From contig JAGBIM010000019.1 of the NCBI GenBank assembly GCA_017934975.1, forward strand, positions 1 through 64,000: a stretch of DNA of 64,000 nt, given 5' to 3'. A model generated the notes under the pieces. The model did not search any database. It saw nothing but the letters and a program-made list of their open reading frames with translations, and had not been told where the DNA came from. This document shows positions 381 through 33,384 of the stretch, one piece after another. Source of the DNA: Clostridia bacterium. Its GTDB lineage: Bacteria > Bacillota > Clostridia > Oscillospirales > UBA644. Every line of letters begins with the position of its first letter. Position 1 is the stretch's first letter. The translations under genes were made by a program, and so were the position numbers.

Positions 381-409
381 TTGACATTTTGCCCGAAACG
401 TGATATAAT
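381..409 (+). promoter_or_regulatory. Promoter of small RNA unit 1
   Basis: TTGACA at 381-386, a 17-nt spacer, and TATAAT at 404-409 match the sigma-A consensus exactly. The predicted start of transcription is about 416. No ORF with a ribosome site follows. Confidence 0.75.
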
Positions 410-415
410 ACCAAC

Positions 416-532
416 GAGACCGTTCGTTGATTTCCCCCGTTGGCACAGGTTGCCCTCCGGCTTGAAATCCGGTTCCCCCTTTTGGCACACGATGCCCTTA
501 GGCTTGGAATTGCTCGTCGGTCTCTTTTTTTT
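416..532 (+). ncRNA. Candidate small RNA 1 with internal tandem repeat
   Basis: The predicted transcript is about 110-115 nt. GAGACCG (416-422) can pair with CGGTCTC (518-524), which is followed by eight T, giving a closing stem that doubles as an intrinsic terminator. Inside are two imperfect 29-nt direct repeats (440-468 and 482-510), each with the layout TTGGCACA, then TGCCCT, then GGCTTG. In each repeat GGCA and TGCC can form a small hairpin with a 5-nt loop (CAGGT and CACGA). The short frames here lack ribosome sites. I do not recognise a known family such as 6S, SRP, tmRNA or RNase P. Confidence 0.5.
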
Positions 533-538
533 CCCCAC

Positions 539-567
539 TTGACAAATCCCGGATTTTGTGCTATAAT
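539..567 (+). promoter_or_regulatory. Promoter of small RNA unit 2
   Basis: TTGACA at 539-544, a 17-nt spacer and TATAAT at 562-567 form a consensus promoter. It begins right after the T-run that ends unit 1. Start of transcription is predicted at about 574. Confidence 0.75.
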
Positions 568-573
568 CGTATC

Positions 574-719
574 AGCATCTGCGACGGTTTGAACCAACTT
601 GGGCAATTGGAGCCCTCTGTTCGTAAACCGCACGGGTGTTTAAAGAGTTCTCCATTGGTACCGTAATCGGTGCTCACGTCAGCATGTAAAGTCTGCCGGG
701 TGGAGGCCTCTTTTTTTTT
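574..719 (+). ncRNA. Candidate small RNA 2
   Basis: The predicted transcript is about 145 nt and ends in nine T (711-719). The terminal stem pairs AAAGAG/CTCC (642-653) with GGAG/CTCTTT (702-713) around a 2x2 internal loop, and encloses an ACCG-TAAT-CGGT hairpin. Upstream, TGCG/GGTTT near 580-590 can pair with AAACCGCA (625-632), enclosing CCAA/TTGG. This is a structured transcript without a coding frame that has a ribosome site. A leader of a distal gene is unlikely because the terminator is followed directly by the next promoter. The family is unknown. Confidence 0.45.
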
Positions 720-726
720 GACGGGG

Positions 727-755
727 TTGACAGTTTTTCATTTTTGTGGTAAACT
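727..755 (+). promoter_or_regulatory. Promoter of small RNA unit 3
   Basis: TTGACA at 727-732 and TAAACT at 750-755 are separated by exactly 17 nt. The promoter begins 8 nt after the T-run of unit 2. Start of transcription is predicted at about 762. Confidence 0.65.
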
Positions 756-761
756 GTAACC

Positions 762-915
762 GAAGTTCTTGCGAAATCGTTTTTGGACGTTACGCGGGGG
801 ATCTTGCATTCGTGAGTCGCAAGGCTTCCGTCGGCAGATTCTGCCGCCGCCCCCACGGCAGCCCGATGAGAGAGGCCGAGCCTTCGGCAAACCTCTTGGC
901 GGTGGGGGATTTTTT
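762..915 (+). ncRNA. Candidate small RNA 3
   Basis: The predicted transcript is about 155 nt. CCCCCAC (850-856) pairs with GTGGGGG (902-908), followed by ATTTTTT, as an intrinsic terminator. It encloses a nested stem, AGAGG with CCTCT around CCGA/TCGG. Upstream there are further hairpins: CTTGC with GCAAG near 802-823, and GGCAG with CTGCC near 834-845. It could be a free small RNA or an attenuated leader of minD, whose start codon lies 137 bp after the terminator. The family was not recognised. Confidence 0.42.
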
Positions 916-21540: not shown

Positions 21541-21547
21541 AATTAAG

Positions 21548-21695
21548 CCTCCCCTTAGTAAGGGGAGGGGGACCGCGATAGCGGTGGAAGGGATTGACCG
21601 CCGTAGAGATTTTTTTGTGCGATTACGGATCGTAACATTTTCCGTGTCAATCCCCTCAGTCATCTGCGATGACAGCTCCCCTTACTAAGGGGAGC
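21548..21695. repeat. Complete miniature inverted-repeat element
   Basis: The 148-bp element is bounded by two copies of the palindrome CTCCCCTTANTAAGGGGAG (21548-21568 and 21675-21695). Inside, GGAAGGGATTGAC (21587-21598) on the left mirrors GTCAATCCCCTC on the right (21646-21656), making an extended inverted repeat around a short AT-rich centre. The window start carries a matching copy. No coding region is present, so it would need a transposase in trans if it is mobile. Confidence 0.8.
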
Positions 21696-26789: not shown

Positions 26790-26900
26790 GGGCAAATCAG
26801 CTTTTCCTGATTTGCCCAGACGGTCGGCTTTGATACTCTTACATTCCCTTGCGGTACTCCGCAAAACCCGTCAGTCATGTAAAAGCTGTTTCTTCTTTAT
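26790..26900 (-). promoter_or_regulatory. ZTP (pfl-motif) riboswitch with terminator platform
   Basis: On the minus strand the aptamer runs from about 26880 to 26813. It opens with TGACTGACGG, has a GCGG/CCGC hairpin in the middle followed by GGGAATGT, and closes with CCGTCTGGGCA, the signature of the ZTP riboswitch family. CTGGGCA is followed by a stem, GGGCAAATCAG with CTGATTTGCCC (26790-26800 and 26807-26817), and TTTTTT, an intrinsic terminator whose 5' arm reuses the aptamer's GGGCA. Binding of ZTP/ZMP should block the terminator and turn pflB on. Confidence 0.86.
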
Positions 26901-33354: not shown

Positions 33355-33384
33355 ATTATATCATAGGTTGCGTCTTTCTGTCAA
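33355..33384 (-). promoter_or_regulatory. Promoter of lipoprotein A
   Basis: On the minus strand TTGACA (33379-33384), 18 nt and TATAAT (33355-33360). The promoter at 34429-34458 has the same layout and similar spacer, a product of the duplication. Confidence 0.75.

Follow-up and report, generated by a model that had tools for sequence, protein, structure and literature searches.

Three tandem promoter-RNA-terminator units

The stretch of DNA analyzed here (referred to as the window; 64,000 nucleotides [nt], positions 1 to 64,000 of contig JAGBIM010000019.1 from GenBank assembly GCA_017934975.1) belongs to a Clostridia bacterium of the order Oscillospirales (GTDB lineage UBA644) and carries, at positions 381 to 915 upstream of a minD-like gene, three tandem units that each consist of a promoter, a folded RNA, and a terminator. 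The promoters of the initial annotation are present on the plus strand at 381..409 and 539..567 (TTGACA-N17-TATAAT, 12/12 consensus positions each) and at 727..755 (TTGACA-N17-TAAACT, 10/12), all three of the near-consensus sigma-70 type, TG-extended, and with a spacer of 17. Behind each of them, as had been claimed, come a folded segment and a U-run; the U-runs end at ~531, ~719, and ~915, and the first two lie ~8 bp from the next promoter. No credible open reading frame (ORF) is found on the sense strand of the three units, in agreement with the same annotation. Exact 12/12 promoters are no rarity here, as 128 kb of strand in the genome contain 9 of them. This density predicts ~0.04 in 535 bp on one strand, so that the two observed on the same strand within 160 bp exceed chance expectation. 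Behind the other consensus promoters in the window there are ordinary genes and no such RNAs.

In the RNA of unit 1 (413..532, +), one hairpin is duplicated in tandem inside a single outer helix (416-422/518-524): the two inner hairpins at 431..468 and 473..510 form a direct repeat with 79% identity and a period of 42 nt, and the helix runs to the U-run. Units 2 and 3 comprise two successive hairpin domains each, with the first helix retained and termination only after the second hairpin. Neither this two-domain build nor the duplication in unit 1 is mentioned in the initial annotation. In unit 2, domain 1 (574..641, +; fold z -2.7) has a degenerate U-run, and domain 2 together with the terminator occupies 641..719 (+; z -3.0, 0/200 shuffles). 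In unit 3, the outer helix of domain 1 (762..828, +; GAAG..CUUGCGA / UCGCAAG..CUUC; z -1.1) has no U-run behind it, and domain 2 plus terminator extends over 847..915 (+; z -1.9). All three units finish in strong terminators. Compared with dinucleotide shuffles, unit 1 (413-532) folds at -38.3 kcal/mol (z -2.5, equaled by 1/200) and unit 2 (574-719) at -51.6 kcal/mol (z -3.2, 0/200). The units have the appearance of true genes for small structured RNAs.

A check against Rfam at gathering score gave no match for the three units, as the initial annotation had anticipated, nor for the RNAs of 19 loci with relatives or for the related array of genome G964 described below; at E<=10, the window units yielded two sub-threshold chance matches only. 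Identification as 6S RNA, T-box, or another leader was rejected, given the lack of an Rfam match and the termination of each unit before the next.

Antisense RNA genes inside polyvalent genes

Relatives of units 1 and 2 are found in other genomes, with stems kept by compensatory changes. A DNA search of related genomes recovered unit 2 (promoter plus first 67 nt) from G003 as well as G006, and unit 1 from G040; two further relatives of unit 1, in G140 and G201, came from a pattern search. The relatives of unit 2 reside in MuF_C genes (G003, G006, and G183). Domain 1 of unit 2 is identical at 59/68 positions, including an identical run of 44 nt, to the antisense RNA of the MuF_C gene in G183, a genome of another family, and corresponds, in antisense, to a MuF_C linker (..FTNRGLQLPKLVQ..IAQN..VK on the minus strand). 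In G003, G006, and G201, the strand opposite the matches is occupied by long open frames with the Pfam domains MuF_C, LPD3, and ART-PolyVal. Such frames represent proteins of the polyvalent or MuF type, which belong to phages and conjugative elements (PMC5512222, PMC5576092); MuF-C has been placed in the PBECR clade of predicted endoRNases. MuF_C relatives are also present in Stx-converting and other Escherichia phages, in a Pasteurella phage, and in Acinetobacter plasmids. In viral contigs, the exact hairpin pattern of unit 1 was not found, and peptide-pattern searches provided one usable locus.

Within polyvalent genes, the RNA gene is headed by a near-consensus promoter and lies inside the coding sequence, on the antisense strand of the linker that immediately follows an RNase-type module (MuF_C, LPD3, or PBECR3). 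The best antisense promoter in the 200 nt after the domain was compared with synonymous-codon shuffles of the same gene. Among MuF_C genes sampled from the order, the class, and the phylum, 25 with a long enough tail were counted, and the antisense promoter beat the shuffles in 21 of them (p<=0.03), nearly always with spacer 17; the sense strand after MuF_C showed no promoter enrichment in the same test. Corresponding results were obtained for LPD3 (18/20 at p<=0.04) and, in long proteins, for PBECR3 (6/8 at p<=0.02), in contrast to 0/8 for the ART-PolyVal controls; the domain sets overlap in genomes and in some proteins and are thus not fully independent.

The embedded RNAs are ~65-75 nt long. 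The 3' arm of their outer helix (7-13 bp) continues into the U-run, and their apical hairpin often reads GGGC-AAUUGGA-GCCC. Domain-anchored sets that had not been picked by an RNA model were scored for a helix whose 5' arm is close to the start of the RNA and behind which a U-run lies. This combination was present after 21/24 MuF_C, 14/20 LPD3, and 8/8 PBECR3 modules, versus 5.2, 4.9, and 2.6 expected from synonymous shuffles, and after 2/8 ART domains versus 1.1 expected. The antisense folding energy has a mean z of -3.3 over 45 embedded RNAs, which were partly model-selected. In an alignment of 12 sequences, with a structure chosen by hand, the outer helix is 95% paired and compensatory changes occur in 7/7 pairs. 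On account of the shuffle-tested helix and U-run, the folding z, and the compensatory changes, the fold is constrained beyond the demands of the encoded protein. The linker after MuF_C in G057 contains a tandem duplication (L051, 1340-1470; ..HNPPGAQFTNDIMSADY / HNSPGAQFTNEIMTADY..), and the antisense RNA therefore has a doubled hairpin, like that of unit 1. An alignment-free AlphaFold prediction for one MuF_C module proved uninformative (mean predicted local distance difference test score, 38).

As a MAFFT alignment that included all 22 RNAs was not tight enough to yield a consensus fold, a covariance model covering promoter and RNA was built from the same 12 sequences, which share one register. 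Most short model matches in genomes (40-60 nt) represent ordinary promoters and were disregarded. Unit 1 scores 59.9 bits (E 3e-11); the score of unit 2 is weak (21.9 bits, E 0.02) and stands beside its sequence homology; unit 3 reaches 20.1 bits over a 58-nt stretch that is mostly promoter and is probably a member, by its anatomy only. The proposal of novel structured small RNAs in the initial annotation is supported; its statement that they are simply unlike each other is not: units 1 and 2 share one architecture and one type of source, to which unit 3 is added by anatomy.

Stand-alone copies and the history of the window array

With the covariance model, well-formed RNAs of this kind with no or a broken sense ORF are found in G000 (the genome of the window), G021, G028, G029, G040, and G049. 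G000 harbors further stand-alone units, two in tandem on contig C18 and one on C3; three are located on contig C44 of G040, two similar ones behind a tRNA cluster in G021, and one each in G028, G029, and G049. The single-unit locus of G049 corresponds to loci in G158, G963, and G964 that comprise three tandem units, each ~142 nt long, with consensus promoters throughout, one of them with spacer 16. In the alignment of this array type, 91% of the cells of the fold are paired and 17 cells show double changes, versus 6 in shuffles; one row is placed 3 nt off, which touches the promoter columns of that row only. Since the covariation stems from few events (two subtypes), it provides modest structural support. 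The persistence of the three-unit arrangement itself across three species of one genus is a firm result. Beside the stand-alone RNA of G049 lies a 69-nt sequence (L121, 3780-3848) of which several genomes of the genus contain dozens of dispersed copies.

At the window locus, none of the three units retains an intact minus-strand frame for the linker, and there is no match to any Pfam family, so that the units count as stand-alone members and form a second case of a three-unit tandem array. MuF_C, ART, PBECR3, and LPD3, which are present in relatives, have no match at this locus or in the genome (71% complete). The placement upstream of minD, pointed out in the initial annotation, is incidental, four congeners having no such RNAs before the orthologous minD-like gene, and a link with minD was rejected for this lack of conservation. 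Together with the similarity of unit 2 to the G183 antisense RNA, the situation in the congeners identifies the window array as a local acquisition.

The surroundings of the array were also inspected. The AT-rich segment 918-1004, directly before the minD-like gene, contains a hairpin (958-975) and is 75-82% conserved in the four congeners; it is a conserved intergenic element, probably a terminator/promoter region, that is unrelated to the three units. Positions 1-277 contain dispersed repeat pieces, parts of which recur at 21546-21615 and on C3 of the same genome near another stand-alone RNA (L130, 5268-5527). Elsewhere in the window, a ZMP/ZTP riboswitch (Rfam RF01750) is located at 26807-26888 (-), and two near-identical consensus promoters with spacer 18 at 33384 and 34458 (-) precede near-identical starts of a signal-peptide-like gene, i.e., a tandem gene duplication.

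Possible roles and comparison with known systems

Overall, the first two units, and probably the third, are stand-alone members of an RNA class that is normally antisense in polyvalent genes, and their most likely role would be that of orphan RNA antitoxins; to this reading as a whole we assign a probability of about 0.45. In the embedded form, an RNase-type module is followed by one RNA gene composed of a promoter, a ~70-nt hairpin RNA, and a built-in terminator. In the genome of the window, the sense frames are lost and the RNA genes left, each with its own strong promoter. Once transcribed, each RNA would neutralize the RNase module of its origin, either by binding the RNase as a decoy (type III-like) or by pairing with the mRNA of the module (type I-like), and orphan tandem copies would give protection in trans against incoming elements with such modules; transcription, binding, and protection are the parts that we infer. 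Orphan immunity copies are known in polymorphic toxin systems, and the orphan RNAs resemble them insofar as both would protect in trans. The antitoxin role is favored because the RNA tracks the type of module (RNase-type, not ART), because sequence changes leave the fold intact, and because orphan copies are retained by genomes in which no such modules were found. The more general idea of an RNA immunity against phage-delivered effectors, with module linkers carrying their own RNA antitoxin gene and bacteria keeping orphan tandem copies as protection, is more tentative.

Several observations weigh against the antitoxin reading. Unit 3 has no sequence homolog and as a whole (762-915; -61 kcal/mol) is no better folded than chance, with a z of -1.0 and 37/200 dinucleotide shuffles. 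LPD3 is not an established RNase, and the absence of the modules from the genome of the window is a weak argument because of its incompleteness. The lack of the array in the congeners makes the decay of a recent insertion possible, and this leads to the reading that the array is a decaying remnant of inserted polyvalent genes whose RNAs would be functional in the element and idle here. The broken sense frames, the missing first U-run of units 2 and 3, the congeners without RNAs upstream of minD, and the dispersed repeats adjoining the array are all in line with such a decay. We nevertheless regard it as improbable, considering the two exact-consensus promoters, the strong terminators on all three units, the further stand-alone units in the same genome, and the arrays kept between species elsewhere.

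Slightly less doubtful is a purely cis-antisense control, in which the RNA would pair with the polyvalent mRNA and lower its expression in the prophage or element, no protein would be bound, and the stand-alone copies would be trans-acting leftovers. Complementarity in cis is perfect by construction, the 44-nt run shared by unit 2 and the G183 antisense RNA makes pairing in trans possible, and prophage type I systems of Bacillus subtilis offer a precedent for antisense pairing (PMC3531473, PMC5848175). The recurrence of the RNA after RNase-type modules and not after the ART domains of the same kind of protein, and the retention of its fold despite sequence change, argue against this explanation and leave it rather unlikely. 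The conserved linker could also be a protein feature, e.g., a processing site (motif S-I-x6-V-N/K) for the metallopeptidases proposed for polyvalent proteins, with the antisense promoter as a by-product; the motif indeed keeps to one reading frame throughout, and polyvalent proteins have been suggested to undergo processing (PMC5512222). Yet synonymous shuffles that preserve the protein lose promoter and fold, and stand-alone copies lack such a frame, so that a protein motif as the sole cause is largely refuted and has very little probability left, while an additional protein role is possible. Equally improbable is a signal for recombination or module exchange, or an importance of transcription itself rather than of the RNA: the modules are mosaic and the units lie at their boundaries, but a recombination site requires no complete promoter and no terminator whose stems covary.

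The RNA class is apparently undescribed; a literature search limited to openly licensed papers found no account of such RNAs, and an earlier description elsewhere is possible. If the antitoxin reading is true, widespread proteins injected by phages and conjugative elements hide RNA genes on the opposite strand of the linkers behind their RNase modules, one per module, which would explain an odd conserved linker motif and provide a candidate answer to the question of how cells encoding these RNases survive.

Among known systems, type I toxin-antitoxin (TA) pairs such as TxpA/RatA, BsrG/SR4, and YonT/SR6 of B. subtilis likewise comprise a small structured RNA that is transcribed on the opposite strand from its own promoter and overlaps the 3' part of a toxin gene in a Firmicutes prophage. 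This opposite-strand placement is seen in the embedded relatives and not in the window. The type I toxin is a small hydrophobic peptide, whereas here an RNase-type module is part of a very large protein (with MuF_C, LPD3, PBECR3, and ART domains), and the RNAs are located wholly within the coding sequence, one per module, and also occur as stand-alone tandem arrays. With type III TA systems (ToxIN and relatives), the RNAs share the linkage of a small folded RNA to an RNase toxin; some members (unit 1 and L051) have internally repeated hairpins, and most have one hairpin. The type III RNA is encoded upstream on the same strand, in contrast to the embedded RNAs on the opposite strand within the gene; moreover, the modules match other Pfam families, and inhibition of the protein by the RNA is putative here. 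The class therefore belongs in full to neither type I nor type III. Cis-antisense RNAs in general also have a reverse-strand promoter within a gene, but they differ from the present RNAs, which combine a covarying structure, a built-in terminator, a fixed site after homologous modules, and free-standing copies. The immunity genes of MuF polymorphic toxins are similarly tied to phage effector modules; they are predicted to encode proteins from a small downstream ORF (PMC5576092), whereas an antisense structured RNA is found here in place of a protein. If the antitoxin role holds, the stand-alone units would be an RNA counterpart of orphan immunity genes.
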